Shown: piece after piece, positions 1 to 19,437 of the stretch
Numbering within the stretch: position 1 is the first letter of the stretch
How the letters are laid out: each line of letters starts with the position of its first letter
NCBI RefSeq assembly: GCF_031128465.2
Contig: NZ_CP155618.1
Coordinates: 4,454,501-4,518,500, forward strand
Reading direction: 5' to 3'
Length of the DNA: 64,000 nucleotides
From: Mariniflexile litorale
GTDB lineage: Bacteria > Bacteroidota > Bacteroidia > Flavobacteriales > Flavobacteriaceae
The notes under the pieces: generated by a model
Databases searched by the model: none
What the model saw: only the letters and a program-made list of their open reading frames with translations
Told to the model about the DNA's origin: nothing
Position numbers and translations under genes: made by a program

Positions 1-639
1 TGGCAAGATGTAAATGGTGTGGAAGTTTGGAAAGAAGTAAATGATGTATATAGAGCTATGCTAAATGATTATCAATTAAAAAACCCTGTTAAACCAAGCT
101 TGTTCTTAGAAGGTTCTTATGAATATGGCACCTATCGTCATGAATGTGGATGGGTAACGCCAGTTAGAGTTCGCAGACAATTTTATCAAACATTTTTTGC
201 TGGTGGGGCTGGACATACCTATGGAGCTGCTCCTATTTGGGCCATGAGAGGCAATGAAGGTGATTATAATTGTGGCTATACTTGGCAAGAAGCCTTAAAT
301 TTCCCTGGGGCAATTCAAATAGCAAAAATTGGGAAACCATTTTTAATAGACCACAAGTGGAATGAATGGATTCCAAACGGGAATGTTATTTCTGGAGTTG
401 GTGAAAATGAAAGTTTAAAAACTGCCGTTACTACAAAATCAGGAGATATGGCATTGATTTATTTCTCTAACAACTCTAGTTGTCGTGTAAACAATGTTTT
501 GAATAAAGATGCTGAAGCATACTGGTTTTATCCTAGAAATGGAGAAATAGAGAAAGTCTCTTCTTTTAAAGATAATGAATCGAAAGCTATGGTACCTCCA
601 TCAAATTGGGAAGATGCTATATTAGTATTGAAAAATTAA
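1..639 (+). CDS. Apiosidase-like (DUF4038, GH140-type) glycoside hydrolase, C-terminal part
   Basis: The frame is open from the first base, so the gene starts left of the window; the GTG at 19 is only an internal codon. About 212 residues remain. The first half resembles the end of the DUF4038 TIM-barrel (apiosidase-like catalytic domain), with blocks LFLEGSYEYG and GGAGHTYGAAPIW. The second half resembles the small beta-sandwich 'putative collagen-binding' domain that ends these proteins (AYWFYPRNGEIE, then a WEDAILVL tail). The characterised GH140 enzyme of Bacteroides thetaiotaomicron removes apiose from rhamnogalacturonan II. The signal peptide and the first catalytic acid lie outside the window. 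A GH105 gene follows 28 bp downstream, probably in the same transcript. Family assignment is good; the exact linkage cut is inferred. Confidence 0.8.
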   Translation, partial: WQDVNGVEVWKEVNDVYRAMLNDYQLKNPVKPSLFLEGSYEYGTYRHECGWVTPVRVRRQFYQTFFAGGAGHTYGAAPIWAMRGNEGDYNCGYTWQEALNFPGAIQIAKIGKPFLIDHKWNEWIPNGNVISGVGENESLKTAVTTKSGDMALIYFSNNSSCRVNNVLNKDAEAYWFYPRNGEIEKVSSFKDNESKAMVPPSNWEDAILVLKN

Positions 640-667
640 AATCATAAAATAAAACTTAAATTCCAAT

Positions 668-2041
668 ATGAATACATTTAAATACATATTAATTGTACTT
701 TTTATAGTACCTCAAATACATTTACTTAATGCTCAAGAAAACAGCTCTAGTAGAATTCCGGAATATGAAATTCCATATGAATTCCCTGAAGTTGATAACA
801 TCAAGGAGGTTTTAAATAGAATTCGTGTTTATTATGAAGCTTCGAGTCCTCAAACTATAGTGGATGGTCAAACAGGAAAAGAAATAACCAACTTTAAAAC
901 ATTCAATTTAAATGCTGAACCATCCAAAGGTTTTTCAAGCGAATTCTCTTATACTCATGGTGTTGTACTTTCAGCTTTTGATTATATAGAGGATGTAACA
1001 GGAGATAAAGCCTTTTTCTCTAATAACATTAAATTTTATGATTATGTGCTTAAAAATTTACCATATTTTCAAAAAAATTCAAAAAAAATAACCAAAGAAA
1101 AAATTGGAAGTTGGGGCAGAATTCTAAATTTTCATGCACTTGACGACTGTGGTTCTATTAGCGCAGCAATGATTAAAACTTATTTAAAAAATAAAAATGA
1201 AAATTATTTAAAATTAATCAATCAAGCTGCCGATCATATTTCAAATAACCAATTTCGTTTAGAAAATGGCACATTAGCAAGAAACCGTCCACAATACGAA
1301 TCGGTATGGGCAGATGATATGTACATGAGTGTTCCTTTTCTAGCGAATATGGGTGTATTGACTGGTGACAACAAATATTTTGATGATGCTGTAAAACAAG
1401 TGCTTCAAATGGGCGATAAATTATATATAAAAGATAAGGAATTGTTTGACCATGGTTGGAATGTTACTTCAGGTGATTATGACCCACATTTTTACTGGGG
1501 ACGCGCAAATGGATGGGTTTTAATGTCCATGGCTGAATTGCTGAGTGTTTTACCTGATGATTACAAAGGGAGAGATGAAATTCTGCACTTATACCGTTCG
1601 ATGGTGCGTTCCTTAGCAAATTTGCAAGACGGAACAGGATTCTGGCATAATCTGTTGGATAAAAGTGATACCTATACAGAAACATCTTGTACAGCCATGT
1701 TTACTTTTGCTATTGCTAAAGGTATTAATGAAGGTTGGGTTAGTCATGTTTACGGTCCTGTGGCCCTAACAGGTTGGAACGCAACTAAAACACGCGTACT
1801 TGAAAATGGTGCCGTAGATGGTACTTGTGAAGGTACAACGTTCGCACACGACAACACTTACTATTATAATAGAGGAAAAAGCATTTATGCGACTCATGGC
1901 TATGGCCCTGTGCTTTATGCGGGTGCGGAAATGATTAAGCTATTACAAAATGACACCCTTGAAATTCAAAAAGCAAAAGATAACTCTGTGAATAGCACGT
2001 ATCATTTTATTCTAAAAAGTGAATGGCCAAATAAACACTAA
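668..2041 (+). CDS. GH105 unsaturated rhamnogalacturonyl/uronyl hydrolase
   Basis: The 457-residue secreted protein has a signal peptide ending near LLNAQ (residue 23), then an (alpha/alpha)6-barrel of GH88/GH105 type. The WADDMYM block at residues 214-220 is the family motif that carries the catalytic aspartate, and WGRANGW at 277-283 is another family signature. These enzymes hydrate the 4,5-unsaturated uronic acid that polysaccharide lyases leave on oligosaccharides, releasing it from rhamnogalacturonan or other uronides. Length is slightly above the usual 370-400 residues, because of the signal peptide and a short C-terminal tail. It sits 28 bp after the apiosidase-like gene and is followed by a strong bidirectional terminator. 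Substrate (rhamnogalacturonan versus another uronide) is not decided by sequence. Confidence 0.88.
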   Translation: MNTFKYILIVLFIVPQIHLLNAQENSSSRIPEYEIPYEFPEVDNIKEVLNRIRVYYEASSPQTIVDGQTGKEITNFKTFNLNAEPSKGFSSEFSYTHGVVLSAFDYIEDVTGDKAFFSNNIKFYDYVLKNLPYFQKNSKKITKEKIGSWGRILNFHALDDCGSISAAMIKTYLKNKNENYLKLINQAADHISNNQFRLENGTLARNRPQYESVWADDMYMSVPFLANMGVLTGDNKYFDDAVKQVLQMGDKLYIKDKELFDHGWNVTSGDYDPHFYWGRANGWVLMSMAELLSVLPDDYKGRDEILHLYRSMVRSLANLQDGTGFWHNLLDKSDTYTETSCTAMFTFAIAKGINEGWVSHVYGPVALTGWNATKTRVLENGAVDGTCEGTTFAHDNTYYYNRGKSIYATHGYGPVLYAGAEMIKLLQNDTLEIQKAKDNSVNSTYHFILKSEWPNKH

Positions 2042-2079
2042 GTTTACTAAGCCATTTTATATTTTTAGACAATCTACTA

Positions 2080-2115
2080 AAACAAAAAGCACCAATTATA
2101 TGGTGCTTTTTGTTT
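2080..2115. terminator. Bidirectional intrinsic terminator between GH105 and FGGY kinase
   Basis: A perfect 15-bp inverted repeat, AAACAAAAAGCACCA and its complement, encloses a 6-nt loop (2095-2100). The A/T-rich ends give a U-run in both directions, so it can end the rightward GH105 transcript and the leftward kinase operon. Confidence 0.88.
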
Positions 2116-3613
2116 ATTGTTTTTTATCATTAATTATTAATTGCCAACCTAAATAGGCATCATTTACAATATCATTATTTTTATTTGGGTCATAACGTTT
2201 AATCATTTCACTAGGCAATTTTGGTAGTTCTTCAAAATTTTTCCAAAGTTTTACGCCCAATCCAGAAATTAAAGCTGCTCCCCATGCTGAAACATCGGTA
2301 ATTCCCATGTTGGTTATTGGGGTTTTTAATAAATCTGCGATAAATTGCATTAAAAACTTATTGGCAGTAATACCTCCGTTTACTTTTAATTCTTTTAAAG
2401 ATGTTTTCGTTTCTTTTTCAATAGAATGAATAACATCTTTTATTTGAAATGCAATTGATTCTAAACTTGCTCTCACTAAATGCGCTTTGGTTGTTCCGAA
2501 AGTTAATCCATGAACAGAAGCTTTCCAATCTTTTTGCCAATAAGGTGCTCCCATACCACTAAAAGCTGGGATTAAATAAACACCTTCATTGTTTTCTAAC
2601 GAGGTTGCCATAGGTTCAATATCACTATAAGTGGTAAAAACATCTAATTGATTTTTCAACCATTCAATAGTAGAACCACAACTTACTATCACGCCTTCTA
2701 GAGCATAATTTACTTGGCCTTCAACACTCCATCCAATAGTGGTTAGCATACCGTTTTGAATATCTTTAGAAATATTCTCAGCATGCCATAAAATAGATGA
2801 ACCTGTACCTAAAGTGGCTTTTGCCATACCATTAGTAAAACATTCTTCACCAAAGAAAGCTGCTTGAGAATCGCCAATAATTCCTGTTATAGGAAGCGCA
2901 TTTTTAAAAGCCCCTTCAAAAGTTGAATCCCCAAAATGGTCGGATGAAAATGTAACCTCTGGCAAATTTATATTTTCTATACCAAATGTTTTCAAAAGCG
3001 ATTTATCCCATTCCAAATTATAAATATTATAGAATAAAGTTCTCGATGCGTTTGTATATTCTGATTTAAAACTTTTGTGATTAGTAAGTTTGTAAAGCAA
3101 CCAAGTATCAACCGTTCCAAAGTAGGCGTCTCCATCATGGATGGCTTTTTTTACTTTATCATTATTTTCATTAAGCCATATAACTTTTGTTGCTGAAAAA
3201 TAAGGGTCAATAGTTAAACCTGTACTCGAATTTATAGCTTTTTCTAAATTACTTTCTTTTAAACGCTCACAAACTTCAACAGATCGTTTACATTGCCAAA
3301 CTACTGCATTATGTAATGGATTTCCGTTTTTATCCCATAATACAAAAGTTTCCCGTTGGTTAGAAATACCACAAGAAACAACACTGTTTTCTTCGCCTGG
3401 AAATTGTTCGTTAAATTGATTCATACAATTTTTAACGGCGTTTATAACCGACTGATAAATCTCCATAGGATCCTGCTCTACAAAACTAGATTGGGGATAG
3501 TATGATTTTAAAGATTCAGTAGTTTTAATAACAACTTTTCCAAATTCATCAAAGATTATAGCTTTAGTACCACTCGTTCCTTGATCGATGGATAAAATAT
3601 ATGATTTAGACAT
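2114..3613 (-). CDS. FGGY-family carbohydrate kinase, glycerol-kinase-like
   Basis: The 499-residue FGGY sugar kinase transfers the ATP gamma-phosphate to a polyol or ketose. DQGTSGTKAIIFD near residue 9 is the N-terminal phosphate-binding loop. The SNQRETFVLWD and GVYLIPAFSGMGAPYW blocks resemble glycerol kinase more than xylulokinase. Length is that of GlpK. It is the last gene of the leftward operon, 38 bp after the permease and followed by a terminator. No glycerol facilitator or glycerol-3-phosphate dehydrogenase is nearby. Beside an isomerase and a split transketolase, the better reading is a ketopentose kinase; D-apulose kinase (ApsK-type) is the leading candidate and D-ribulose/D-xylulose kinase the alternative. 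The family is certain, the substrate is inferred. Confidence 0.85.
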   Translation of the reverse strand: MSKSYILSIDQGTSGTKAIIFDEFGKVVIKTTESLKSYYPQSSFVEQDPMEIYQSVINAVKNCMNQFNEQFPGEENSVVSCGISNQRETFVLWDKNGNPLHNAVVWQCKRSVEVCERLKESNLEKAINSSTGLTIDPYFSATKVIWLNENNDKVKKAIHDGDAYFGTVDTWLLYKLTNHKSFKSEYTNASRTLFYNIYNLEWDKSLLKTFGIENINLPEVTFSSDHFGDSTFEGAFKNALPITGIIGDSQAAFFGEECFTNGMAKATLGTGSSILWHAENISKDIQNGMLTTIGWSVEGQVNYALEGVIVSCGSTIEWLKNQLDVFTTYSDIEPMATSLENNEGVYLIPAFSGMGAPYWQKDWKASVHGLTFGTTKAHLVRASLESIAFQIKDVIHSIEKETKTSLKELKVNGGITANKFLMQFIADLLKTPITNMGITDVSAWGAALISGLGVKLWKNFEELPKLPSEMIKRYDPNKNNDIVNDAYLGWQLIINDKKQ

Positions 3614-3651
3614 AATAATTTTTACTTTAAATAAAGACTTTTTTTTAAAGC

Positions 3652-4623
3652 TTAGTCTTCGCTAGGGTGATTTAATCGATCCATAATTACGGCTACTAAT
3701 ATTACCAAACCTTTGATTATTTGTTGCCAAAAAGGCGATACGTTTAGCAATACCAATCCACTATTCAACACACCGATAATAAGTGCTCCTTGAACAGTTC
3801 CCATAATAGAACCTCTACCTCCAGATAGTGAAGTACCACCAATAACTACAGCCGCAATAGAATCTAATTCATAGCTCATACCAGCATTTGGTTGCGCAGA
3901 GTCTAAACGAGATGTTAGTATAATACCACCTACTGCTGCTAAAATACCAGCAATGGCATACACCCAAATTTTTATTTTATTAATGTTGATGCCTGATAGT
4001 CTGGCAGCACTTTCATTCCCACCAATAGCATAAATATGTCTACCAAATTGCGTTTTCTTAGTAACAATTACCGCAATAACCACTATAATAACAGTAATCC
4101 AAACAGGCATAGGTATCCCTAAAAACCAACCTGTTCCTATAAAATCGAAACTATCACCCAATCCAGTTATAGGGAAACCACCAGTCCATAACATGGTAGC
4201 ACCTCTTGCAATAGTTAACATAGCTAAAGTTGCCACGAACGGAGGTACTTTAAAGCGTGTAATCATCCACCCATTAAACACTCCTAGAGATCCACCAATT
4301 ACTAAACCTGCAAGTATAGCACCGAATACAGTAAACCCAATGTAGGTATTAAACGCAGGAACTTCTAAACCAAATTTTAAGAGCCCAGCAGCAACAGCAC
4401 CACTAAAAGCAAGAATAGAACCTACAGACAAGTCTATTCCTTTTGTGAGTATAACTAAGGTCATACCCACAGAGATACATACGTTTATAGATATTTGTCT
4501 TGCAATGTTCCATCCATTTTCCATGGTGAAAAACTTATCAGACATGATAGTTAAAACAATACATAGCACCAATAGTGCAATAATGGATTGAAATTTTACT
4601 AAAGTATTTTTTACATCAGCCAT
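3652..4623 (-). CDS. Sugar ABC transporter permease, RbsC-type (CUT2)
   Basis: This 323-residue inner-membrane protein has about eight to ten hydrophobic segments and matches the BPD_transp_2 family. Visible family features are the GMTLVILTKGIDLSVGS block in the second and third helices and the ARLSGIN EAA-like loop before the last helices. It would form the homodimeric channel for the periplasmic sugar bound by the lipoprotein encoded at 6927-7880. The ATPase gene lies 54 bp upstream in the operon and the kinase 38 bp downstream. Such CUT2 importers are uncommon in Bacteroidota, which mostly use symporters. The substrate is probably a pentose-like monosaccharide. Confidence 0.9.
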   Translation of the reverse strand: MADVKNTLVKFQSIIALLVLCIVLTIMSDKFFTMENGWNIARQISINVCISVGMTLVILTKGIDLSVGSILAFSGAVAAGLLKFGLEVPAFNTYIGFTVFGAILAGLVIGGSLGVFNGWMITRFKVPPFVATLAMLTIARGATMLWTGGFPITGLGDSFDFIGTGWFLGIPMPVWITVIIVVIAVIVTKKTQFGRHIYAIGGNESAARLSGININKIKIWVYAIAGILAAVGGIILTSRLDSAQPNAGMSYELDSIAAVVIGGTSLSGGRGSIMGTVQGALIIGVLNSGLVLLNVSPFWQQIIKGLVILVAVIMDRLNHPSED

Positions 4624-4677
4624 TTTAAAGTCTTATTTTGTTTTTATTGAGTGGTTTCGTTGGGTTATTTCTAATTA

Positions 4678-6198
4678 TTATATAATAGCCGCTTTCATAA
4701 TAGCTTCTTCATTGAAATTTTCTTGACTGAATTCTCCAGTGATTCTTGAATCGCTTAATACTAGAATTCTATCAGAAATAGCCATAATTTCTGGAAGTTC
4801 TGAAGAAACAACTACGAGTCCCAATCCATCTTTTGCTAAATTATTTATTAGATGATAAATCTCATTTTTTGCATTTACATCAATGCCACGTGTTGGTTCA
4901 TCTAGAAATAATATTTTTGGTGTCGTAGCAAGCCATTTAGAAAGCACTACTTTTTGTTGATTTCCACCACTCAAATTTCCTGAAAGTTGTTTCTCTGAAG
5001 GCGTTTTAATTTTAAGAGCTTCAATATATTTTTTAGATAAAAGTGCTTCAAGTTTAGAGTTTAAAAATCCACTTTTTACCACGTCGTTAATACTTGCCAT
5101 ACTAACGTTTTTTGATATTTCCATTTGTAATACCAAACCATCTTCTTTTCGGTCTTCAGGTACTAAGCCCATACCATTTTTAATGGCGTCCATTACCGAT
5201 TTGATTCGGACTTGTTTGTTTTCAATAAATACAGAACCTGACATGATATTAGCATGCAATCCAAAAAGTGTTTCTAATAATTCTGTTCTTCCTGCACCCA
5301 TTAAGCCAAATACTCCAAGAACTTCTCCCTTTTTAACACAAAAATTAATATCCTTTATTAAATAAGATGATTTACTTGTGATTTTTGGAAGCGATATATT
5401 TTCTACTCTAAGAACCTCTTCTCCAAAGGGAACAGTTTCTTTTTTATACATGTTTTTAATGTCCCTACCCACCATTAATCGGATAAGGTCGTCCTTTTTT
5501 GCATCTTGAACATTTTCTATACTTCCAACAATTTTCCCATCTCGTAAACCTATAAATCGGTCTGCAATTAAAAAAAGTTCATCTAATTTGTGAGAGATAT
5601 ATAAAATGGAAACATTGTCTTTTTTAAGCGATGCAATAATTTTAAATAGTGATTCAACCTCGGTATCTGAAATCGCCGATGTTGGTTCATCCATAATAAC
5701 CAATTTAGCTTCTTCTAATAACGCCTTGGCTATTTCTATAAGTTGTTGTTCACCTACTCTAAGTTCAGAAACCAATGTTTTAGGGTTCAAATTACAATCC
5801 AAACGAGTTAGTAGCTCTTTAGTTTTGTTGTTCATTTGTTTAGAATCTAAGATTCCGAACACATTGTGTAGTTCTCTACCTAAAAATATATTTTCAGTAA
5901 TGCTTAAATAAGGAATTAAATTTAATTCTTGATGAATAATAGCAATACCTTTTTGCATGGCATCTTTTGGGTTGCTAAAATTCACTTCTTCATTATTTAA
6001 CAGAAGCCTCCCTTCATAATCTGGATATACTCCAGATAAAATTTTCATCAATGTCGATTTTCCTGCGCCATTTTCCCCAACAATCACATTCACTTTTCCT
6101 GTATGAACGTCAAGGTTTACATCGCTTAAAGCGATAACACCTCCAAATTTCTTAGTTATATTTTTGGCTTGTAATAATATGTTTGGTTGGTTTTCCAC
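4678..6198 (-). CDS. Sugar ABC transporter ATPase, RbsA-type with two ATPase domains
   Basis: The 506-residue protein carries two fused ABC domains, as in RbsA/XylG. The first has a canonical Walker A (GENGAGKST, about 41-49), a signature region LRVGEQQ and Walker B LVIMDEPTS. The second has the degenerate P-loop GLMGAGRTE usual for this family but a full LSGGNQQ signature and ILFLDEPTRG. It would energise the RbsC-type permease. Only 4 bp separate it from the upstream DUF2291 gene, so the two are probably translationally coupled. The name rbsA would imply ribose, which the context does not support. Confidence 0.92.
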   Translation of the reverse strand: MENQPNILLQAKNITKKFGGVIALSDVNLDVHTGKVNVIVGENGAGKSTLMKILSGVYPDYEGRLLLNNEEVNFSNPKDAMQKGIAIIHQELNLIPYLSITENIFLGRELHNVFGILDSKQMNNKTKELLTRLDCNLNPKTLVSELRVGEQQLIEIAKALLEEAKLVIMDEPTSAISDTEVESLFKIIASLKKDNVSILYISHKLDELFLIADRFIGLRDGKIVGSIENVQDAKKDDLIRLMVGRDIKNMYKKETVPFGEEVLRVENISLPKITSKSSYLIKDINFCVKKGEVLGVFGLMGAGRTELLETLFGLHANIMSGSVFIENKQVRIKSVMDAIKNGMGLVPEDRKEDGLVLQMEISKNVSMASINDVVKSGFLNSKLEALLSKKYIEALKIKTPSEKQLSGNLSGGNQQKVVLSKWLATTPKILFLDEPTRGIDVNAKNEIYHLINNLAKDGLGLVVVSSELPEIMAISDRILVLSDSRITGEFSQENFNEEAIMKAAII

Positions 6199-6202
6199 GA
6201 TT

Positions 6203-6826
6203 TTAATTATTGAATTTTATAATAAGTGGAATTACTTTTAATGCTTGCAAATTAGGAGACTTGGTATTTACTTTAACGGCACCTTTAAAATATAACGTAT
6301 CACCTTCCTTTACTTTTTGTTTGAAAGGTGGAACAATAGTTTCCCTTACGATATTGTTAAGCTCAACAGAAATAGTATTGAAGTCCATCGTATTTTGAAA
6401 ACTTCCAATATCTGCTAAACCACTTCCGTCTCTAATGGCATTTCCAAAAATAAAATCGGTTGCTATTCGTATTTGTTGTTTGCTATCATCATCAATTGCT
6501 ACCAAAACATCTTCTTCTTCAATAGCAATAACTGTAGCATTGCCATCAATAATAAAATTGTAATCATTGCTAATTCCAAGTTTTTTTCCTTTTTGTTCAC
6601 AATATTTTTCCACACCTTTAGTAATATCTGCTAGAAATTCTGAAACATTAATAGCTGGGAGAGTTTCAATATTATTAGACATAAAATCGGTTGCCAAAGT
6701 TTTGGCATCAAAAACGCTGGTGCTTTGTTCTTCTTTAACTTTATCTAATGGCTCAAAATAAACAGCATTGTAAAGTGATAAAACTAAAATAACTACTATG
6801 ACGATATATTTAACTGGTTTTTTCAT
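6203..6826 (-). CDS. DUF2291 protein linked to the sugar ABC importer
   Basis: The 207-residue protein has one N-terminal membrane anchor (about residues 7-25) and a soluble, presumably periplasmic domain. It matches DUF2291, recognised by a FGNAIRDGSG block followed by a conserved F-Q segment. The family has no established biochemical role, and as I recall is encoded inside operons for CUT2 sugar importers, as here between binding protein and ATPase. A role as an assembly or substrate-delivery partner is inference. The ATPase gene starts 4 bp downstream; the binding-protein gene ends 100 bp upstream. Confidence 0.82.
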   Translation of the reverse strand: MKKPVKYIVIVVILVLSLYNAVYFEPLDKVKEEQSTSVFDAKTLATDFMSNNIETLPAINVSEFLADITKGVEKYCEQKGKKLGISNDYNFIIDGNATVIAIEEEDVLVAIDDDSKQQIRIATDFIFGNAIRDGSGLADIGSFQNTMDFNTISVELNNIVRETIVPPFKQKVKEGDTLYFKGAVKVNTKSPNLQALKVIPLIIKFNN

Positions 6827-6926
6827 GTGTTTATATATTATCTACTTTTATTGTCACATAGTCCTTCCATATAATCATTCCCTTGAATATCGAGAGTTCG
6901 TTATGGAAGTTTCATGGTTAATTATT

Positions 6927-7880
6927 TTAATTGTTAGCAATAAATTTATTAATGTTCTCTTGTGTAACAACTTCAACAGCAAGTGGTGTTTTTGCGCTAA
7001 AATCTCTTTTCCCATTTATATATTCATCGGCTAATTCAGCAGCAGTTCTAGCCATTTTCTTAGAAGATTGCATTACGGTAGCTGTTATTTTATTATCAGC
7101 TATGGCATTCATAACATCATTTTCTCCATCAAAACCAAAAATCATAACTTCTTTTTCTTTTCCAGCGGCTACTAATGCTTGATAAGCCCCCATGGCCATA
7201 GAATCATTTCCACAAAATACAGCGTTAATATCTGGATTTGATTGCATAATTGACTCCAATTTATCCATTGCTATACTTCTATCAAAATCGGCACTTTGTT
7301 GTGCAACCATTTCCAATTCAGGAAAAAGATCGACCACACTATGAAACCCTTTGGATCGGTTCCAAGTATTATTATCGCCCACCAATCCTAACAATTCAAC
7401 ATATTTTCCTTTTTTGTTAAGTTTACGAACAAAATATTCACCTAATTCCACACAACCAGAAAAACTATCTGAAATTATTTGTGAAGTTGCTGCATCTAAA
7501 GAATTTACCTCTCTATCCATGCAAAAAACAGGAACACCTGCTTTCTTTGCACGTTTAACATTCGATACGGAACCCTCTGAATCGGTTGGATTGAATAATA
7601 CAGCACTGTAACCTGCTGCAATTAAATTCTCGAAATGCTCTGCTTCTTTTGATGTATTGTTTTGTGAATCGAAAATAGTGGCTTCATAACCTAACTCTCT
7701 GGCTCGTTCTGCAGCAGATTCTGCAAAAGCAACGAACCAAGAGTTGTTTAGTGTTGAAATAACAACCGCTATTTTTTTAGGGCCATCTTCCTTTTTTGAG
7801 TTACAGCTGAATACAGTAAATATGGCTAGTAATAAAAGAATTAGATTTTGTGGTTTGAATGGTTTAGTTGGTATGCTCAT
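6927..7880 (-). CDS. Sugar-binding lipoprotein of the ABC importer (Peripla_BP_4)
   Basis: This 317-residue periplasmic binding protein of RbsB type has an N-terminal hydrophobic segment ending in TVFSC, a lipobox with Cys26, so it is probably lipidated rather than free. The mature part starts with KKIAVVISTLNNSWF, the usual first strand and ligand loop, and contains the aromatic/asparagine-rich ligand positions NNTW and GNDSMAMGAY plus the hinge GFDGEND. Of the operon genes this is the best candidate to define the imported sugar. It follows the transketolase subunits (11 bp downstream of the second) and precedes DUF2291. Binding of D-apiose is proposed from context only; ribose, xylose or another pentose remain possible. 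Confidence 0.9.
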   Translation of the reverse strand: MSIPTKPFKPQNLILLLLAIFTVFSCNSKKEDGPKKIAVVISTLNNSWFVAFAESAAERARELGYEATIFDSQNNTSKEAEHFENLIAAGYSAVLFNPTDSEGSVSNVKRAKKAGVPVFCMDREVNSLDAATSQIISDSFSGCVELGEYFVRKLNKKGKYVELLGLVGDNNTWNRSKGFHSVVDLFPELEMVAQQSADFDRSIAMDKLESIMQSNPDINAVFCGNDSMAMGAYQALVAAGKEKEVMIFGFDGENDVMNAIADNKITATVMQSSKKMARTAAELADEYINGKRDFSAKTPLAVEVVTQENINKFIANN

Positions 7881-7891
7881 AAAATCTAATT

Positions 7892-8863
7892 TTAAATATC
7901 TAACAATTCTTTACACGTTTTAAACAAACCGTCTTTCGATATGCCGTAATGGTTAAAGATTTCTACCTGAGAACCAGTAACGGTATATTCATCAGGAATT
8001 CCAACAATTTTAAATGGATTTTTAAATCCCTTTTGAAAGAGATGAGATGCACAAGCTTCTCCCAAACCACCGTTTACCATGTGTTCTTCAACAGTAATAA
8101 TTGGTCTTCCGTTTGAAGCTAATTCTTCTAATAATTTAATATCCAAAGGTTTTATAGTATGCATACTAACTACAGTCGCCTTCATATCATGTTCATCTTC
8201 AAGTTTTTTTGCAGCTAACCAAGCAGGATAAACGGTTTCACCTGTAGCAATAATTGTAATATCATTACCCTCTCTAACAACACGACCTTTACCAAACTCA
8301 AAAGTCTTATTATCTTCTTTTAAAAAAGGCATGGCTTTTTTGCCATAGCGCATGTATACAGGTTTATTGGTTTTAGCAGCTAAACGAACTGCTTGTTCTG
8401 TTTCAAAATTATCAGCTGGTGCAACGATAATGATATTGTTTATGGCACGAAGCACAGCATAATCGTGTAAACTATGGTGTGTGGTACCAAGTGCACCGTA
8501 ACTAACACCAGAGCTGATACCCACTAAAGTTACAGGGTTATCAGAATAACAAACATCATTTTTAATTTGCTCCAAGGCTCTTGCACTTAAAAAACATGCA
8601 GGAGATACTGCAAATGTTTTTTTACCTGCTGAAGCTAATCCAGCTGCTACACCCACTAAATTTTGTTCTGCAATACCTACTTCAACAATTTGATTAGGAT
8701 ACTTTTCTCCAAAAGGAACTAACTTTCCTGAACCACGTGAATCACTAGTTACTGCAATAATATTTCTATCGGTTTCAGCTAATGCTTGCAATGTTTCAGA
8801 AAAAACATCTTGATTAGCCTTACCCATTTTTAAATCCTTTTCCTCTATTTTATCTAATTCCAT
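7892..8863 (-). CDS. Transketolase subunit B (pyrimidine-binding and C-terminal domains)
   Basis: The 323-residue protein covers the second half of transketolase. The Pyr domain contains EVGIAEQN, with the catalytic glutamate that activates thiamine diphosphate, and YGALGTTHHSLHD. The C-terminal transketolase domain contains TVEEHMVNGGLGEA. It forms the enzyme with subunit A, whose gene ends 5 bp upstream. Two-subunit transketolases occur both as general enzymes and in dedicated pathways such as apulose-4-phosphate transketolase (AptAB), which moves a two-carbon unit to glyceraldehyde 3-phosphate. An alternative start is Met13 (position 8827). Placement in a sugar operon argues for a dedicated role. 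Confidence 0.9.
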   Translation of the reverse strand: MELDKIEEKDLKMGKANQDVFSETLQALAETDRNIIAVTSDSRGSGKLVPFGEKYPNQIVEVGIAEQNLVGVAAGLASAGKKTFAVSPACFLSARALEQIKNDVCYSDNPVTLVGISSGVSYGALGTTHHSLHDYAVLRAINNIIIVAPADNFETEQAVRLAAKTNKPVYMRYGKKAMPFLKEDNKTFEFGKGRVVREGNDITIIATGETVYPAWLAAKKLEDEHDMKATVVSMHTIKPLDIKLLEELASNGRPIITVEEHMVNGGLGEACASHLFQKGFKNPFKIVGIPDEYTVTGSQVEIFNHYGISKDGLFKTCKELLDI

Positions 8864-9716: not shown

Positions 9717-9726
9717 TAATCGATTA
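9717..9726. promoter_or_regulatory. Palindrome TAATCGATTA before transketolase subunit A
   Basis: This perfect 10-bp palindrome overlaps the stop codon of the isomerase gene, 24 bp upstream of the transketolase A start. With one following C, the same 11-bp string recurs next to the susC promoter (12432-12442). Its core fits the AAnCGnTT pattern of LacI-type operators. A regulatory role is inference. Confidence 0.35.
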
Positions 9727-11225: not shown

Positions 11226-11993
11226 TTATGCTAAAATGACTTCGATTTCATGGTTTTTAAAAACTTTCTTATCCGATTCTTTGATTCCTGAGTCTGTTAC
11301 TATATAATCTATTAAAGATAGCGCTCCTAAACTCGCTAAAGCACTTTTGCCTATTTTGGTACTATCCGCTACCAAATAGGTAATATCAGCAGCTTCTATC
11401 ATCGCTCTTTTAACAACCAAGTCACTAATACTTGGATAAGTTAAGCCCGATTTTAATGAAATTCCAGCAGTTGCTAGAAATAGTTTTTGCACATTCAAAC
11501 CTTTAAAAAAATCGGCAGCCTTTTGCCCTGTAAGTGATAAAGTTGGAGGTTTAAATTCTCCTCCAGTCATTATAACTTCTATACCAGGCTCAGTACCTAA
11601 CATCAATGCTATATTCAAGGCATTGGTTATTACTGTTAAATTTTTAAAACCAATTAATTTTTTAGCTAATTCCGTGGTAGTGCTACCTGAGTCCAAAATA
11701 ATAGTATCCCCTAATTCAATATATTCTAGACATTTAAGTGCAATAGATTCTTTTTGCTCTAAATTCTCTTGGTGAAATAATGCAAAATTTTTAACATGGT
11801 CTTCAATATTTTTCATAAAAGCACCTCCATGCTCTCTAATTATTAAACCTTGTTTTTCTAGCTTCTCTAGGTCTTGTCTCACAGTTACTTCGGTAACTTT
11901 GAACAACTTTGCTAAATCAACTACTTTTGCAGAACCATCTTCTTGAAGCAGTTCCATTATTTTTTCTCGTCGTTTATTGGGTAATATTGCCAT
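11226..11993 (-). CDS. DeoR-family transcriptional regulator
   Basis: The 255-residue regulator has an N-terminal winged helix of HTH_DeoR type (about residues 5-60, with TEVTVRQDLEKLEKQG as recognition region) and a C-terminal DeoRC sensor domain that usually binds a phosphorylated sugar. The DSGSTTTELAK loop near residue 100 is the typical phosphate site. It heads the leftward operon, 86 bp before the isomerase gene, and lies divergent from susC across a 502-bp gap holding three AAACGAAA elements. It probably controls the catabolic operon, and perhaps the divergent susC/susD genes, in response to a phosphorylated intermediate. Effector and operators are inferred. Confidence 0.9.
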   Translation of the reverse strand: MAILPNKRREKIMELLQEDGSAKVVDLAKLFKVTEVTVRQDLEKLEKQGLIIREHGGAFMKNIEDHVKNFALFHQENLEQKESIALKCLEYIELGDTIILDSGSTTTELAKKLIGFKNLTVITNALNIALMLGTEPGIEVIMTGGEFKPPTLSLTGQKAADFFKGLNVQKLFLATAGISLKSGLTYPSISDLVVKRAMIEAADITYLVADSTKIGKSALASLGALSLIDYIVTDSGIKESDKKVFKNHEIEVILA

Positions 11994-12495: not shown

Positions 12496-15400
12496 ATGAC
12501 AAACCAAAACTTACTTAGTTTTCTACAAATCTTTTTAAGATATATAGAAGCTATAAAACAGAATTTTAAAAAAAATGACCTATTATTTTTAATGGGTTTA
12601 TTATTTATTTGTACGGGCTCTTTACATGCTCAAAATAAAACTGTTACGGGCAAAGTAACGGACGGTGATGATTTGGAAGGCCCTTTAGCTGGAGTGACTA
12701 TTCTTGTTAAAGGTACCAACAACGGAACCTCTACAGACTTTGATGGAGATTTCACTCTTAATAATGTAAGTGAAACTGCAACTTTAGTATTTTCCTATAT
12801 AGGTTATGTTACCCAAGAAATTCCTGTAAATTATAAAACGACCTTTAATGTAACTCTAAAGCCAAGTTTAGAATCTCTAGATGAAGTTAAGATAGTAGCT
12901 ATTGGTTATGGAACAGTAAAAAGGGAGAACTTAACAGGTTCGGTTGCATCAATATCAGCAAAGGAATTATCTAAAGTTGCGGTAACAAATGTTTCGGAAG
13001 CCTTAGCAGGAAGACTACCTGGTGTAAGCGTTCAAGCCATAGATGGAGCTCCTGGGGCTGACATTATAATTCGTGTAAGGGGTGGAGGATCTATTAATAA
13101 TGATAATTCACCACTATATGTCGTTGATGGACTCATTGTTGATAATTTAAACGACCTTCCTCCAGGTGATATAGAAAGCATTGATGTTTTGAAAGATGCT
13201 GCCTCTACTGCTATTTATGGATCCCGTGCATCAAATGGGGTCATATTAGTTTCTACTAAAAGAGCAAAAGCAGGTAAAACGACGGTTACTTATAATACTT
13301 TTTTTCAAGTTAAAACGTTCCCATCAGAAAGAAAGTACAACGTTTTATCTCCTTACGAATTTGCATTAATGCAATATGAGACAGCTGCCATAGGTGGAGC
13401 AACTACACTTGCACAATTCACAAAAGACTACGGTCATTTTGGTGATTTAAAGTTGTATAAAAATATGAAACCAATTGATAGACAAGAAGATTTGTTTGGT
13501 AAATCTAATTTTTCAAGATATAATAATTTTAATATCACAGGAGGAACTGAAGCCACTAGAATGTTTCTTAGTTATACTTCAAATAGAGATTCTGGTTTAA
13601 TGCCAGATAGCGGTCAAGATAGAGATGCTCTAAATTTTAAATTAAATCATCAAATTTCTGATAAATTAAAAATTGATGCAGGAGCTAGAATAACAACTAA
13701 TTTGATAAAGGGATCTGGTATTAGTGGTACGTCTGGATTAAAAGTATCTAATTTAGTTACTAATAGACCTATCAACGGTCTTGCAGACGAGTTGATTATT
13801 AATCCGGATTCTGCAGATGATGATTATTTGCAAGACTACATAGCCTCTTATTTAAATCCTGTTGAATATAGCAAACAAGATTGGAGACAAAAAAAGAGTT
13901 TAAGTTATATATTTAATGCAGGTTTAACTTGGGATATCTTAAATAATCTAAAAGCTAATACAGCGGTATCTCTAAATAAAACGTATGGAGAAAATCTGAG
14001 ATTTTATGGACCTATAACAGGTGTTTCAAAAGAAAATGGAGGCGCGCCTGTTGGCACTAAATACGATTATGAAGATAAGTCTTATAGAATTACAAATACG
14101 TTGAATTACAGCTTTAAAAATCTTGGAAAACATGATGTGAATATATTAATTGGGCAAGAAGTAGGTTCTTCTGGAGGAATAAATCAATCTATACAAGTAG
14201 GTGGTTTTAGACCTTCCATACAACCTGAAGAGCTATTTGCAAATACGCAATTAGGAGACTCTCAGTACACCTATCAAAGCACTAAAGAAGAGACGGACAC
14301 AAACATATTTTCTCTTTTCTCTAGAGCTAATTATTCCTATGATGATAAGTACTTATTTACAGCAACTGTGCGTAGAGACGAATCCAGTATATTTTCTAAA
14401 AGCAATAGAGTAGGGTATTTCCCAGCCTTTTCTGCTGGGTGGAAAATTTCAAGCGAACCGTTCTTAAAAGATTCAAAAGCAATTAATCAGTTGAAGTTAA
14501 GAATTGGCTATGGAGCTACAGGTAATGATAATATTCCAACTAATTCAACAAACCTATTATATTTTGCAAGTGACTCTAGAGGACCTGGATTTACTAATGA
14601 TTTGCCTTCCTCTTATTATTATGCTGGTGGTGGTAGTACATTATATAACCCAGATTTAATATGGGAAACTACTATTGGTAAAAATATTGGTTTAGACTTT
14701 ACATTGTTTAACTCTGTTGTAAATGGAAGTTTAGATTTTTACAGAAATGAAGTAAAAGATTTACTAGTAAAAGGTCTTATTCAAGGAAGCCCTGGGTTTA
14801 GCACGCAATGGTCTAATGCAGGAAACACTTCTAATCAAGGAGCTGAGTTAGGTTTGAGCATGAACGTATTAAATAAAAAAGATTATTCGTTAACTATCAA
14901 CGCTAATTTTGGTACCAATAAATTCAGAATTGACAAACTTCCTGGACTTGATAAGCAGCAATTTTCAACAACAAATTGGGCTAGTACGGATTTAAACTGG
15001 TATGAGGATTATTTGCTAAAAGAAGGAGACGAAGTTGGCTTAATTTATGGTTACAAAAATGATGGTTTCTATACGGTTGATGATTTTGATCAAGTAACGC
15101 CTACTACATATGCGTTAAAAGCAGGATTACCTAATCCAGGAGGCCTTTATGGCACAACTCTTAGGCCAGGCTCTATGAAAATTAAAGATTTAAATAACGA
15201 TGGCGAAATTGACAAAGATAATGACCGTACTGTAATTGGGAGTACATTACCAAAAGCAACAGGTGGATTTGGTTTTACAGCAAATTTAAAAGGATTTGAT
15301 ATCTCAGCCTTTTTTAACTGGTCTTATGGAAATGACGAATATAATGCAGGGAAAATTGCCTATAATTCATTGTTTGCAAGAAATGGCGGTTCTTATTTAA

Positions 15401-15852
15401 ATATGTTGACTACTATGGATTCGTCTAATAGATTTACTTATATTGATATTGATGGTACATATACTGGTACTCCTGGTCAAATTATAACTGACTTAGCACA
15501 ATTAGGGGAATTGAATGCTGATAAAACAATATGGAGTGGTAATATTTCATTTGCAAATAGAAAACCGCAACTCACTGATTGGGCTGTTGAAGATGCCTCT
15601 TACATTAGATTTAGCAACCTTACTATTGGGTATACTATGCCAATGAAGGCTATTCAAAATTCTATTATTTCTAATTTACGCTTTTATGTAACAGGAACAA
15701 ATTTATATCTATGGACTAAGTACTCTGGATATGATCCTGATGCAAATAACTCTAGAAGTAATGATGGTTATCAGGGTTTAACTCCTGGGTTAGATTTTTC
15801 ATCTTATCCAAAAAATAGATCATATACTTTTGGTGTAAATGCTAGCTTTTAA
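12496..15852 (+). CDS. SusC/RagA-family TonB-dependent outer-membrane transporter
   Basis: The 1118-residue protein has a hydrophobic signal segment preceded by an unusually long cytoplasmic N-terminus of about 30 residues (cleavage near LHAQ, residue 46). It continues with a CarboxypepD_reg-like beta-sandwich (KVTGKVTDG... region with NGTSTDFDGDFTL), a plug domain carrying GRLPGVSVQ and IDVLKDAASTAIYGSRASNGVI, and a 22-strand barrel ending in YTFGVNASF. It imports oligosaccharides across the outer membrane together with the SusD-type lipoprotein encoded 39 bp downstream. The substrate is expected to be a pectin fragment, because the third gene and the GH105/apiosidase genes point that way. 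A -7 element and an operator-like palindrome precede it. Confidence 0.95.
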   Translation: MTNQNLLSFLQIFLRYIEAIKQNFKKNDLLFLMGLLFICTGSLHAQNKTVTGKVTDGDDLEGPLAGVTILVKGTNNGTSTDFDGDFTLNNVSETATLVFSYIGYVTQEIPVNYKTTFNVTLKPSLESLDEVKIVAIGYGTVKRENLTGSVASISAKELSKVAVTNVSEALAGRLPGVSVQAIDGAPGADIIIRVRGGGSINNDNSPLYVVDGLIVDNLNDLPPGDIESIDVLKDAASTAIYGSRASNGVILVSTKRAKAGKTTVTYNTFFQVKTFPSERKYNVLSPYEFALMQYETAAIGGATTLAQFTKDYGHFGDLKLYKNMKPIDRQEDLFGKSNFSRYNNFNITGGTEATRMFLSYTSNRDSGLMPDSGQDRDALNFKLNHQISDKLKIDAGARITTNLIKGSGISGTSGLKVSNLVTNRPINGLADELIINPDSADDDYLQDYIASYLNPVEYSKQDWRQKKSLSYIFNAGLTWDILNNLKANTAVSLNKTYGENLRFYGPITGVSKENGGAPVGTKYDYEDKSYRITNTLNYSFKNLGKHDVNILIGQEVGSSGGINQSIQVGGFRPSIQPEELFANTQLGDSQYTYQSTKEETDTNIFSLFSRANYSYDDKYLFTATVRRDESSIFSKSNRVGYFPAFSAGWKISSEPFLKDSKAINQLKLRIGYGATGNDNIPTNSTNLLYFASDSRGPGFTNDLPSSYYYAGGGSTLYNPDLIWETTIGKNIGLDFTLFNSVVNGSLDFYRNEVKDLLVKGLIQGSPGFSTQWSNAGNTSNQGAELGLSMNVLNKKDYSLTINANFGTNKFRIDKLPGLDKQQFSTTNWASTDLNWYEDYLLKEGDEVGLIYGYKNDGFYTVDDFDQVTPTTYALKAGLPNPGGLYGTTLRPGSMKIKDLNNDGEIDKDNDRTVIGSTLPKATGGFGFTANLKGFDISAFFNWSYGNDEYNAGKIAYNSLFARNGGSYLNMLTTMDSSNRFTYIDIDGTYTGTPGQIITDLAQLGELNADKTIWSGNISFANRKPQLTDWAVEDASYIRFSNLTIGYTMPMKAIQNSIISNLRFYVTGTNLYLWTKYSGYDPDANNSRSNDGYQGLTPGLDFSSYPKNRSYTFGVNASF

Positions 15853-15891
15853 TTAAAATAGGTTATAAAATTAATTTAAAAATATATCACT

Positions 15892-17772
15892 ATGAAAACA
15901 ATTAAAAAAATATTAATTATACTAACGGCAGTTCTTTTGAGTGGCTGTTCAGATTTTTTAGAACCAGATTCGCCTTCAACATTTGATAAAGTTTTAGTTT
16001 ACTCTAATCTTGATGATGCTAGAAAAGCGACCAATAATATTTACGTTCAATTTGGTCAAGATGGTTATAGAACCAGACTTTCCATTACCATGCAGGGAAT
16101 TACTGATATAATGACTGGTGGAGATAAAAGCTCTACTAAGGATAATTATCAAATTATGGCTTTGAAAGCGGTTTCTAGTAATGGCGATTTAGCTAAGGCA
16201 TGGACATCCGCTTACACAGCTATTAAAGATTGTAACTTTGTGATTGAAGGTTTATCGAATAGTGCTCTTTTCAATTCTACTGATCCAGCTATTAGTGCAG
16301 AAATGCATCAGTTAATTGGAGAGGCATATACTATTAGAGCATTCTGGTACAGTCAATTAGTTTATAATTGGGGTGATGTGCCTTATTATAGAAACGCTCC
16401 AGTAGCAGGTGATAATTTTGATCTTCCAAAAACAGATAGAAATCAAATTCTTTCGGAAATGATTGATGATTTAAGAGCTGCTGAAACAGGAATGAAATGG
16501 GCTAGTCAAGTACCACAATCTTGTCAGCAAGTAAATAGAGAATATGCAATAGGAATGATTGCTAGATTATCATTGCAACGTGCTGGGTACTATTTAAAAC
16601 CAGATATGACTAAAGATGTAGCAACACCTGCTGATCGTGCTGCCTATTATACCATTGCCAGAGATTATTCTCAGAAATTAATGACTTTAAAAGACAGACC
16701 TTTAGCAACAGATTTTGCACAAATATTTAAAAATCAATGCAATAGAATTTACCCGTCAGAAAGCGATATGTTATTTGAAGTGCCTTTCGCTATTGGTGCA
16801 GGAGAAGTAGGTTATAATGTGGGAATGAATGTGGCTTCATCAGATAAACATCCTTATGGGAAGGGTGGTCATGATTATAGTATGCCACTTTCTTATTTCT
16901 ACTCTTTCGATACAAAAGATAAAAGATTACCTGCCACTTGTGGTTTGTATGATTTAACAAATCCTGCAGGAACAACTCTTACATTAATTCCATCAGCGGT
17001 TTCAAGTACTGGTATTGCTCAAGCAAAATGGAGTGTAGCGTATGTTGAAGGTGGGAATGGTTCTTCAGTAACAAAAGGAACAGGTATTAACTGGCCCATG
17101 ATGCGTTATTCAGATGTTTTATTAATGTTTGCAGAAGCTGAAAATGAATTAAACGGACCAACTCAAGCTGCAAAAGATGCCTTAAAAAGAGTAAGACAAA
17201 GAGCTTTTGATAGCGCAAATTGGTCTACAAAAGTGGATGATTATATTACTACTATTTCGGCTAGTAAGGCTTCTTTCCTAAAGGCTATTGTTGATGAAAG
17301 AGCTTGGGAATTTGGCGGGGAATTGTTAAGAAAAAATGATTTAGTGAGATGGGGTATTTACGAAGATAAAATGCTCGAAACTGTAAATAAAATAAAGGCT
17401 ATAGGTGATCAATCTATTGCGAATGATCCAAATTCTATATATGCTAATTACATTTACTGGAGAGTTGATAATAAAAAAATAACTATTTATGATGGATTAA
17501 ACAGTAATACACCTCCTCCTGGTTATAATGCAAATGTAACTGTTACAACTGATATTAGTACTGGCGATACACTTCCTTTAGACGCATGGCAAAGATCTGA
17601 CTGGTCAAATAAAATGAAAAGTAGTACTACTGGTTTATATAACACCTTTTTAGACACTCAATATTCACCATACATAGATTCAACACCTATTAGATATATT
17701 CAACCCATACCATCTGGCACCATTAGCAATAGCGCCATTCTAGTAAATGATGGTTACGGATTCACTAATTAA
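15892..17772 (+). CDS. SusD/RagB-family nutrient-binding lipoprotein
   Basis: The 626-residue surface lipoprotein has a signal peptide with lipobox LLSGC (Cys19) followed by the usual SDFLEPDSP start of mature SusD proteins. The N-terminal TPR-like helices (YTIRAFWYSQLVYNWGDVPY) and the C-terminal RagB domain (MRYSDVLLMFAEAENEL, then VDERAWEFGGELLRKNDLVRW) are typical. It closes over the SusC barrel and binds the oligosaccharide. It is co-transcribed with susC and with the beta-helix protein that begins 12 bp downstream. Length is slightly above the usual 500-600. Confidence 0.95.
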   Translation: MKTIKKILIILTAVLLSGCSDFLEPDSPSTFDKVLVYSNLDDARKATNNIYVQFGQDGYRTRLSITMQGITDIMTGGDKSSTKDNYQIMALKAVSSNGDLAKAWTSAYTAIKDCNFVIEGLSNSALFNSTDPAISAEMHQLIGEAYTIRAFWYSQLVYNWGDVPYYRNAPVAGDNFDLPKTDRNQILSEMIDDLRAAETGMKWASQVPQSCQQVNREYAIGMIARLSLQRAGYYLKPDMTKDVATPADRAAYYTIARDYSQKLMTLKDRPLATDFAQIFKNQCNRIYPSESDMLFEVPFAIGAGEVGYNVGMNVASSDKHPYGKGGHDYSMPLSYFYSFDTKDKRLPATCGLYDLTNPAGTTLTLIPSAVSSTGIAQAKWSVAYVEGGNGSSVTKGTGINWPMMRYSDVLLMFAEAENELNGPTQAAKDALKRVRQRAFDSANWSTKVDDYITTISASKASFLKAIVDERAWEFGGELLRKNDLVRWGIYEDKMLETVNKIKAIGDQSIANDPNSIYANYIYWRVDNKKITIYDGLNSNTPPPGYNANVTVTTDISTGDTLPLDAWQRSDWSNKMKSSTTGLYNTFLDTQYSPYIDSTPIRYIQPIPSGTISNSAILVNDGYGFTN

Positions 17773-17784
17773 ACTCATAAAAAA

Positions 17785-19437
17785 ATGAAAAACCTTAATA
17801 TAAAAATCTGTTACACACTACTACTATTAGTTGGTGTATTATTTTTTAACTCGTGTAGCGATGACGCTATACAAGAAGATGGAATCCAACTTTTTAGACC
17901 AGTTTTGAATGTGCCATTATATGCTGAAAAAAATGCAATTATAGTTAAAATGGGGCTATTTAAAACTGCCGTTGGATATAAGATAGAACTAAGTAGGGAT
18001 AATTTTGCTACACCAGCAATAAAGATCATTGAAACTACCGATCCTACCATAATTATTCCAAATTTATTATGGAATACGACGTATCAAGTTAGAGCAATGA
18101 CCTATGCGGCAGATCCACAATATAACAGTGAAGTTGCAGAATTTGGCGAAGTTAAAACTGGTCGTTTTCCTTCCATTTTAGCAATACCTCAAAGTGACGA
18201 TATTATTGACAATGCCTTAAATGTGCGTTGGACGGTTTCAGGTTCACCTGTAACCACTATAAAAATATTTGAAGCAGCTGATGAAGAATTAGCGAATGAG
18301 TTAGCTAGTTATACTACTACAGAAGCTCAACAACTTACAGGTTTAAGAAGTATAAAACAATTAGCAGCATCTACAGCATACACTGTAGCCATTTATAGTG
18401 ATGATGTTTTAAGAGGGTTTGAAATTTTCACTACTAAAGCTGCATTGCCTACCACAGGAGATCTTGTTGATGCAAGAGGTGACGATTTGTTTGACCCAGC
18501 AACAGATGATGGCACCTATTTAAACAATAAAATTGCGGAAATTATGGCTTTACCTAATGGTGGCACTTTAATTCTTGATGGAGATCAAGAATACATATTT
18601 AAAGGCACCACAATTAATAATAGCATTAAAATTATAAGTGGATACAGTTTAAATACTGGTGGAGCCAAAATAAATGTTAATAGTAACTTTAATATTGCCA
18701 ACAATGCTAGTATTGATCATGTAATATTATCAGGATTAAAACTAGATGGTAGAGACAAAAACCCGTATTTTCTGAATGTTGGAGATGCGGCATCATTTAA
18801 TATAAACACCTATAGATTTGAAAATTGTTACATGACTGAAATTAGAACTTTTGCACGTATTAGAAGCGGTGTTACTGGTGCTGTAAATAATTTTGAGATT
18901 GATAATTGTTCATTATTTCGTGCTGGTAAAGATTATTATTTATTTACGTATGAAGGAAGTAATGCAGGTTTTACGATAGGAAATGTTAAACTTACACGTT
19001 CTACTTTTCAAAGAACTCAAAGATTATTGAGACATGCAGGTCCAGATCCAATAAATAGTATTATCATAAGTGATTGTACCTTGGGTGAAACAACACTATA
19101 TAATAATGTATGGTTTGAACTTACTCCAATAGTTACTAACGGTATTAAATTTACGAACTCACTTATTGGTAGAGCGTGGGATAATACCACTGCTCCCGGA
19201 CTTACTAATGCACCTTCTAAGTTTTTGAAATTAGGAAATGGCTCTATAGTTACTTTCGAGAATACCTTTCAAACAAATGATGTTATTTGGGACGCCTCTT
19301 ACATACAGCCAACAATTCCTGTATATAACGGTACTGTAAGTGATTTATGGGTAGATTCTATAAATGGTGATTTTAATATTAAAGATAAGACTTTTGTAGG
19401 AAGAAGTACTAGTGGAGATCCCCGCTGGAGATTATAA
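17785..19437 (+). CDS. Surface lipoprotein with fibronectin-III-like and beta-helix domains (DUF5123/DUF4957 type)
   Basis: This 550-residue lipoprotein has lipobox FFNSC (Cys24). Residues about 40-225 look like two fibronectin-III-like modules (NTTYQVRAMTYA and STAYTVAIYSDD are typical strand patterns). Residues about 230-550 form a right-handed beta-helix with repeated N-rich turns (NSIIISDCTL, NFEIDNCSLF), matching DUF4957/DUF5123 proteins found as the third gene of pectin loci. No pectate-lyase catalytic residues were recognised, so a glycan-binding role at the cell surface is more likely than cleavage. It follows susD by 12 bp and ends the transcript just before a terminator. Confidence 0.75.
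   Translation: MKNLNIKICYTLLLLVGVLFFNSCSDDAIQEDGIQLFRPVLNVPLYAEKNAIIVKMGLFKTAVGYKIELSRDNFATPAIKIIETTDPTIIIPNLLWNTTYQVRAMTYAADPQYNSEVAEFGEVKTGRFPSILAIPQSDDIIDNALNVRWTVSGSPVTTIKIFEAADEELANELASYTTTEAQQLTGLRSIKQLAASTAYTVAIYSDDVLRGFEIFTTKAALPTTGDLVDARGDDLFDPATDDGTYLNNKIAEIMALPNGGTLILDGDQEYIFKGTTINNSIKIISGYSLNTGGAKINVNSNFNIANNASIDHVILSGLKLDGRDKNPYFLNVGDAASFNINTYRFENCYMTEIRTFARIRSGVTGAVNNFEIDNCSLFRAGKDYYLFTYEGSNAGFTIGNVKLTRSTFQRTQRLLRHAGPDPINSIIISDCTLGETTLYNNVWFELTPIVTNGIKFTNSLIGRAWDNTTAPGLTNAPSKFLKLGNGSIVTFENTFQTNDVIWDASYIQPTIPVYNGTVSDLWVDSINGDFNIKDKTFVGRSTSGDPRWRL

Follow-up and report, generated by a model that had tools for sequence, protein, structure and literature searches.

The left part of the 64,000-nucleotide stretch of Mariniflexile litorale DNA analyzed here (positions 4454501-4518500 of the 4.52-Mb single-contig genome, NZ_CP155618.1; hereafter the window), together with the region that adjoins it on the left, probably encodes a locus that degrades apiose-bearing homogalacturonan and consumes the released apiose through a mosaic D-apiose module. 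At the sequence level, D-apiose as the substrate is well supported by the phylogenetic placement of the isomerase and the transketolase N subunit and by the pectate lyases and apiosidases encoded in the flank. The first-pass annotation had read the locus as capturing an apiose-bearing pectin and feeding the sugar into central metabolism, which the enzyme clades and the flank bear out, whereas the pocket of the sugar-binding protein (SBP), the importer and the ancestry of the kinase speak against it. If correct, this reading extends the apiose pathway, in mosaic form, to many Bacteroidota and connects it with a pectin locus of a kind that would suit the apiogalacturonan of seagrass or duckweed.

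The core of the locus is a nine-gene operon on the minus strand, running from window position 11993 to 2114 with intergenic gaps of 4-100 bases, in the order DeoR-family regulator, isomerase, transketolase N subunit, transketolase C subunit, SBP, DUF2291 protein, ATPase, permease and kinase (Table 1). From the gene content, the isomerase and transketolase N clades and the changes in the kinase pocket, we infer the substrates and the order of the steps. The PL1- and PL10-type lyases and the pectin esterase would cut the apiogalacturonan backbone, the GH105-type enzyme would trim the unsaturated ends, and the GH140-type apiosidases, perhaps with proteins of the nucleoside hydrolase fold, would free D-apiose. 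The ribose-type ABC importer would take up D-apiose, the AraA/FucI-type isomerase would convert it to apulose, the GlpK-like kinase would phosphorylate apulose, and the two-subunit transketolase would transfer a two-carbon unit to glyceraldehyde 3-phosphate, yielding xylulose 5-phosphate and dihydroxyacetone phosphate. The transketolase reaction with glyceraldehyde 3-phosphate is that of the published apiose pathway.

Comparison with known apiose clusters

D-apiose pathway I (ApsI, AplK and AptA/AptB; Pectobacterium, E. coli and, as we take it, Actinobacillus succinogenes) has in common with the window an FGGY kinase, a two-subunit transketolase, a CUT2 importer with a DUF2291 protein and also the isomerase, which is absent in E. 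coli. The window differs from pathway I in the ribose- or glycerol-type ancestry of its permease, ATPase and kinase, in the pocket type of the SBP, in having a DeoR-family regulator where pathway I has a sugar-binding regulator, and in the adjoining hydrolases. Strains of E. coli and E. fergusonii with a cluster of the type found in E. coli SE15 grew on D-apiose and K-12 did not (PMC13001218). The SE15 cluster, the query of that work, encodes an SBP, a DUF2291 protein, an ATPase, a permease, a kinase, a regulator, AptA, AptB and two short-chain dehydrogenases/reductases (SDRs) but no isomerase. The two SDR genes (L008:12042-13657 and 17009-17944) replace the isomerase in SE15, which also has an odd SBP pocket and may in addition import a related compound.

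Plasmid records from Sodalis, Rahnella and Klebsiella combine SE15-type parts with an isomerase that adjoins aptA/aptB and a kinase homologue, and we infer its identity with the published ApsI; in the isomerase tree these enterobacterial sequences stood in for authentic ApsI. The Klebsiella record (CP110761.1, L040) is an 11.6-kb linear K. pneumoniae 'plasmid' that consists almost entirely of the apiose cluster and is perhaps an assembly fragment.

Isomerase and transketolase group with enzymes of apiose clusters

For the analysis of relatives, the isomerase served as the query to collect 80 named loci (the best 80 of 553 relatives, a sample biased to close kin). The isomerase tree included every fourth of these loci (20), four further genomes, the window, the three enterobacterial isomerases, eight Bacteroidota isomerases of about 49% identity to that of the window and two more distant ones. 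The 25 operon isomerases form one clade with the three enterobacterial sequences (support 100/100), to which the window isomerase is 52-53% identical; this clade stands apart from the eight isomerases of about 49% identity, and the two far rows lie outside. Columns fixed within groups are less clear-cut: 20 are shared by operon and enterobacterial isomerases only, 17 by operon isomerases and the eight, and 12 by enterobacterial isomerases and the eight. An AlphaFold model of the isomerase (pLDDT 64, a weak model used for the fold only) matches AraA (7chl) at 4.8e-16. The closest named isomerase among the matches listed, 96% identical, is that of Confluentibacter lentus, which makes a host in the Flavobacteriaceae probable; going by the habitats of such relatives, the host may be marine. 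A separate Fucose_iso_C protein, encoded elsewhere in the genome (G000:C1:2551352-2551843, within a 595-aa frame), is probably a true L-fucose isomerase.

The transketolase N tree is built on 20 of the 80 loci, taken at intervals of four, the window, four AptA sequences including that of E. coli, and 25 other Bacteroidota homologues, which remained from 30 loci after five turned out to be of the operon type; at least one of these 25 is a full-length transketolase. The 21 operon subunits and the four AptA form a single clade (99/89) apart from the 25 homologues, one of which (L160) is sister to it. For the C subunit, the comparison was limited to identity (38-40% to AptB). A two-subunit pair with an N half that branches as sister to the AptA clade (L187, genome G044) is encoded in a polysaccharide-biosynthesis cluster and may build a branched sugar.

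The first-pass annotation had proposed aligning the isomerase, kinase and transketolase subunits with ApsI, ApsK and AptA/AptB. The outcome is mixed: the isomerase and transketolase N group with the enterobacterial apiose clusters, whereas the kinase, permease and ATPase are closer to GlpK, RbsC and RbsA, respectively.

The left flank is a pectin locus

The first-pass annotation had suggested extending the sequence to the left for the remaining hydrolases. In the scanned region outside the window (4416001-4455500; L006 and L007), pectin genes start at L006:3882 (4419882) and span about 35 kb. They include three PL10-type genes (PF09492), one pectinesterase and five related PL1-type genes without a Pfam match at 1e-5, one of which was compared with solved structures and matches PDB 9buj ('Pectate lyase') at 3e-59. 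Three PF13204 proteins scored above the cut-off, one of them ending inside the window: this protein, Api2, has 488 aa and a PF13204 domain at G000:C1:4453778-4454842, and its last 212 codons occupy window positions 1-639, the 5' part being left of the window. Api1 (L007:13234-14649) matches the DUF4038 structures 3kzs and 5msy at 1e-128. The apiosidases of flank and window combine the PF13204 domain with similarity to solved apiosidases and are GH140-type by sequence. Of the six PF07632 genes in the genome, five are located in this flank, beyond the sequence available to the first-pass annotation, and are discussed below. The flank also encodes a protein with two FGE-sulfatase-type stretches (L007:1728-3194).

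We take PDB 9buj to be PfPL1, from the pectin locus of Pseudoalteromonas fuliginea, which belongs to another phylum than the host. PfPL1 acts on apiogalacturonan, that is, homogalacturonan carrying apiofuranose branches (PMC11229556). The first-pass annotation had named rhamnogalacturonan II or apiogalacturonan as possible substrates. The flank, with its pectate lyases, pectin esterase and apiosidases, fits apiogalacturonan better than rhamnogalacturonan II, given that no family specific to the latter was recognized among the 24 flank open reading frames in a Pfam scan (Pfam omits some rhamnogalacturonan II families).

Kinase, importer and alternative substrates

Several observations weigh against an apiose locus, most of them concerning the kinase and the importer. 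By identity, the window kinase is nearer to GlpK (40%) than to the kinases of enterobacterial apiose clusters (36%); among 18 columns that separate GlpK from AplK it sides with GlpK in 10 and with AplK in 8, agreeing with AplK in two of the three discriminating pocket columns and in 6 of the 15 outside the pocket. The permease (50% to E. coli RbsC) and the ATPase (46% to RbsA) are both closer to these ribose proteins than to the enterobacterial apiose parts. The SBP pocket is identical to that of TmRBP of Thermotoga maritima at 14 of 15 sites (Leu for Ile at one) and differs at five of the 15 from the apiose-bound 5ibq and the SBPs of Sodalis, Rahnella and Klebsiella. This closest solved relative of the SBP belongs to the T. 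maritima ribose operon, for which ribose and xylose act as inducers (PMC3750489). Finally, an apiosidase is found in only 6 of the 80 best loci, and any pectin-type gene, apiosidases included, in 14, with up to 10 kb of flank.

The kinase would also fit a variant of the proposed pathway in which apulose is cleaved by the transketolase without prior phosphorylation and the dihydroxyacetone released is then phosphorylated by the GlpK-like kinase. Besides the greater similarity to glycerol kinase, this variant is favored by seven relatives that have the permease but no kinase match in the fetched stretch (L061, L100, L102, L103, L105, L109 and L084, where the contig ends); in L100, a fructose-1,6-bisphosphatase gene follows the permease in place of the kinase. 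Two residues, 247 and 271 in GlpK numbering with the initial Met included, argue against it. We take these and the other compared sites to be glycerol contacts of GlpK. Gln and Phe occupy the two positions in 27/27 GlpK sequences, and both are replaced by Ser in 60/60 operon kinases and in the four enterobacterial apiose-cluster kinases; of the seven contact sites compared, four do not vary between the groups, the operon kinases agree with GlpK at Tyr136, and at these two alone they agree with the enterobacterial kinases. We regard the variant as improbable. With the discriminating columns split 10 to 8, the pocket comparison is suggestive and does not amount to statistical proof. In a careful unrooted tree of 24 operon, 14 GlpK and 4 AplK sequences, from which the long outlier L122 was left out, the operon kinases form their own clade, one of three supported clades; in a quick tree that included L122, the 60 operon rows (59 of the 63 loci with a kinase match, plus the window) do not fall on one side of a branch.

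The SBP, for which the first-pass annotation had proposed ligand-binding tests, has a pocket of the ribose-binding TmRBP type, and the protein as a whole is slightly nearer to the SBPs of Sodalis and Rahnella (39%, against 35% for RbsB), which makes it the only importer part closer to the apiose-cluster proteins. The 15 pocket sites are presumably those that contact ribose. The SBP scores 346 bits with TmRBP, the structure of which was solved with ribose (PMC2630998), and 212 with 5ibq. This likeness is the main evidence against apiose as the ligand in our sequence comparison, although pocket type is a weak guide, because neither the TmRBP nor the 5ibq pattern is seen in the SBP encoded by the apiose cluster of E. 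coli SE15, which differs from the other seven compared. Together with the RbsABC-like importer, the pocket would suit an operon for import and use of D-ribose, with the isomerase, transketolase and kinase as side branches. We give this reading little credence: neither a ribokinase nor RbsD is among the nine operon genes, ribose requires neither an isomerase nor a dedicated transketolase, and the isomerase and the transketolase N subunit cluster with apiose-cluster proteins next to a pectin locus. The DUF2291 protein of the window produced no blastp match with that of the E. coli apiose cluster.

To our knowledge, D-arabinose is not a pectin sugar, which counts against a further reading, that of a D-arabinose operon in which the isomerase yields D-ribulose and the kinase ribulose 5-phosphate. 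The isomerase is of the suitable AraA/FucI type, and the T. maritima 'ribose' operon (RbsR regulon), the SBP pocket of which is nearly identical to that of the window, encodes two predicted D-arabinose enzymes along with a transketolase and a ribokinase (PMC3750489). The D-arabinose route needs no dedicated AptA-type transketolase, however, the isomerase and transketolase N clades speak otherwise, and the kinase scores 546 bits with the GlpK model, far above the ribulokinase models, so that this reading appears slightly less probable still than D-ribose. The T. maritima operon differs from that of the window in its ribokinase; control profile searches of the T. maritima genome found PF13204 and PF10054 above the cut-off and matched PF02952. 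The present comparison raises the question of whether T. maritima, too, might use apiose by way of its 'ribose' operon. A sulfoquinovose (sulfo-transketolase) pathway was set aside because the only NCBIfam match of the isomerase, SftI, reached 97.9 bits where the cut-off is 700, and because the operon includes an FGGY kinase.

Distribution of the operon among relatives

The operon set recurs in the best 80 loci, with both transketolase halves in 77, SBP in 72, DUF2291 and ATPase in 69 each, permease in 66, DeoR in 65 and kinase in 63; some of the misses are due to contig ends. Across 296 genomes of the phylum, the isomerase was detected at E 1e-20 in 15: five at 69% identity or more (window included), eight at about 49% and two at 26-28%. 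Four of the five genomes with close isomerases have all nine genes; the fifth (L027) has matches for the isomerase and transketolase N only, none for DeoR, and its contig ends there. The fetched stretches around the eight isomerases of about 49% identity (L028-L035), which lack a split transketolase, contain no match for transketolase C, SBP or DUF2291. A transketolase N match is present in two of them (L033 and L034) and in L034 belongs to a full-length transketolase. Within this group, L031 adjoins GH127, an SSF symporter and an FGGY kinase, and L028 has an SSF symporter and an aldose epimerase.

Nucleoside-hydrolase-like proteins associated with the operon

PF07632-like proteins occur near the operon in 45 of the 80 best loci (44 with other search settings), compared with none of 10 control loci of 14-20 kb around more distant isomerases (Fisher p 0.0006; this and the following p values ignore relatedness). 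In 24 of the 80, the matches lie inside the operon on the same strand, in eight named families and four slots: the slot from transketolase C to SBP has 20 matches, that from isomerase to transketolase N has 5, that from permease to kinase has 4 and that from DeoR to isomerase has 1, where some genes may count as two matches. The four in the permease-kinase slot are from Flavobacterium, at 28-31% identity. The link is uneven, with one of 11 Sphingobacteriaceae loci and one of nine Chitinophagaceae loci.

At the genome level (window genome dropped), PF07632 is present in 4/4 genomes with close isomerases vs 22/291 others (p 5e-5) and PF13204 in 3/4 vs 33/291 (p 0.006), and PF13204 is found in 16/26 genomes with PF07632 vs 20/269 others (p 2e-10). 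Genomes with isomerases of about 49% identity have no excess of either family (2/8 each). PF07632 adjoins the isomerase in just one of the four close-isomerase genomes (G158).

A structure model of the PF07632 protein of L047 (pLDDT 72) matches 2yhg, the structure of Sde_0182 from Saccharophagus degradans, at 3.8e-42 and, weakly, the Trypanosoma brucei nucleoside hydrolase 4i73 (6.4e-4); the flank proteins are of the same family and fold as Sde_0182. In a profile comparison, the nucleoside-hydrolase-like alignment did not match E. coli RihC. Asp49, 55, 56 and 283 (numbering of L007:14708-16183), which we take to be the calcium site of the family, are invariant in 14/14 aligned members; these 14 proteins, and the 11 of a second set, were hand-picked.

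Two readings of these neighbors have to be considered. There is an even chance that they merely bind furanoses or have unrelated ribosides as substrates, and that they accompany genes for plant polymers of any kind. In favor of this are the absence of any annotated nucleoside-hydrolase-like protein in the enterobacterial apiose clusters, the lack of PF07632-like matches in the fetched stretch of 35 of the 80 best loci, and the presence of PF07632 and PF13204 within 10 kb of each other in only one (G051) of the 16 genomes that have both (296-genome sample, window genome excluded). The intra-operon, same-strand location and the four invariant Asp stand against this. Ribose and apiose furanosides, but not arabinofuranosides, have a cis-2,3-diol in common. 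Sde_0182 keeps a calcium ion and showed no activity on nucleosides, and a furanose-interacting role has been proposed for it (PMC8910321), which is compatible with mere binding and, combined with the putative calcium-site Asp and the shared diol, also leads to the second reading. Tentatively, and with somewhat lower probability, the Sde182 (PF07632) proteins could be a new class of apiofuranosidases, which would cleave O-apiosides with a nucleoside hydrolase fold, the calcium site holding apiofuranose by its cis-2,3-diol in the way that nucleoside hydrolases hold ribose. If so, an orphan family with a structure solved since 2011 but no assigned activity gains a directly testable function. A link of nucleoside hydrolases or DUF1593 to apiose, or a mention of apulose, was not found in a literature search that left most subscription journals uncovered.

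PF01156-like proteins are found in 4 of the 80 best loci. PF01156 nucleoside hydrolases are encoded inside the operon of a Spirosoma (L107:13481-14515) and beside the operon of L102 (L102:18792-19832). Under the apiofuranosidase reading of Sde182, the intra-operon PF01156 proteins would be a second branch of such enzymes. L107 also has an esterase gene between the isomerase and transketolase N.

Genes of the window

All genes named in the first-pass annotation were recovered in their places (Table 1).

Table 1. Predicted genes in the left part of the window (window coordinates)
Predicted product	Position	Strand	Basis
GH140-type apiosidase (PF13204), C-terminal part	1..639	+	Best PDB match 8t9w 'Apiosidase', 4e-46
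GH88/GH105-type unsaturated uronyl hydrolase	668..2041	+	PF07470; best PDB match 3k11, 3e-99
GlpK-like FGGY kinase, predicted apulose kinase	2114..3613	-	Ser at GlpK positions 247/271; separate clade in one of two trees
CUT2 ABC permease, RbsC-like	3652..4623	-	50% to E. coli RbsC
CUT2 ABC ATPase, RbsA-like	4678..6198	-	46% to E. coli RbsA
DUF2291 protein	6203..6826	-	PF10054; position as in enterobacterial apiose clusters (by annotation)
Sugar-binding lipoprotein (SBP), TmRBP type	6927..7880	-	Pocket comparison
Transketolase C subunit, AptB-like	7892..8863	-	38-40% to AptB
Transketolase N subunit, AptA clade	8869..9693	-	Tree
AraA/FucI-fold isomerase (Fucose_iso_C), predicted D-apiose isomerase	9724..11139	-	Tree; predicted model
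DeoR-family regulator	11226..11993	-	Family profile
SusC-like TonB-dependent receptor	12496..15852	+	
SusD-like lipoprotein	15892..17772	+	
DUF5123 lipoprotein	17785..19437	+	fn3 match below cut-off

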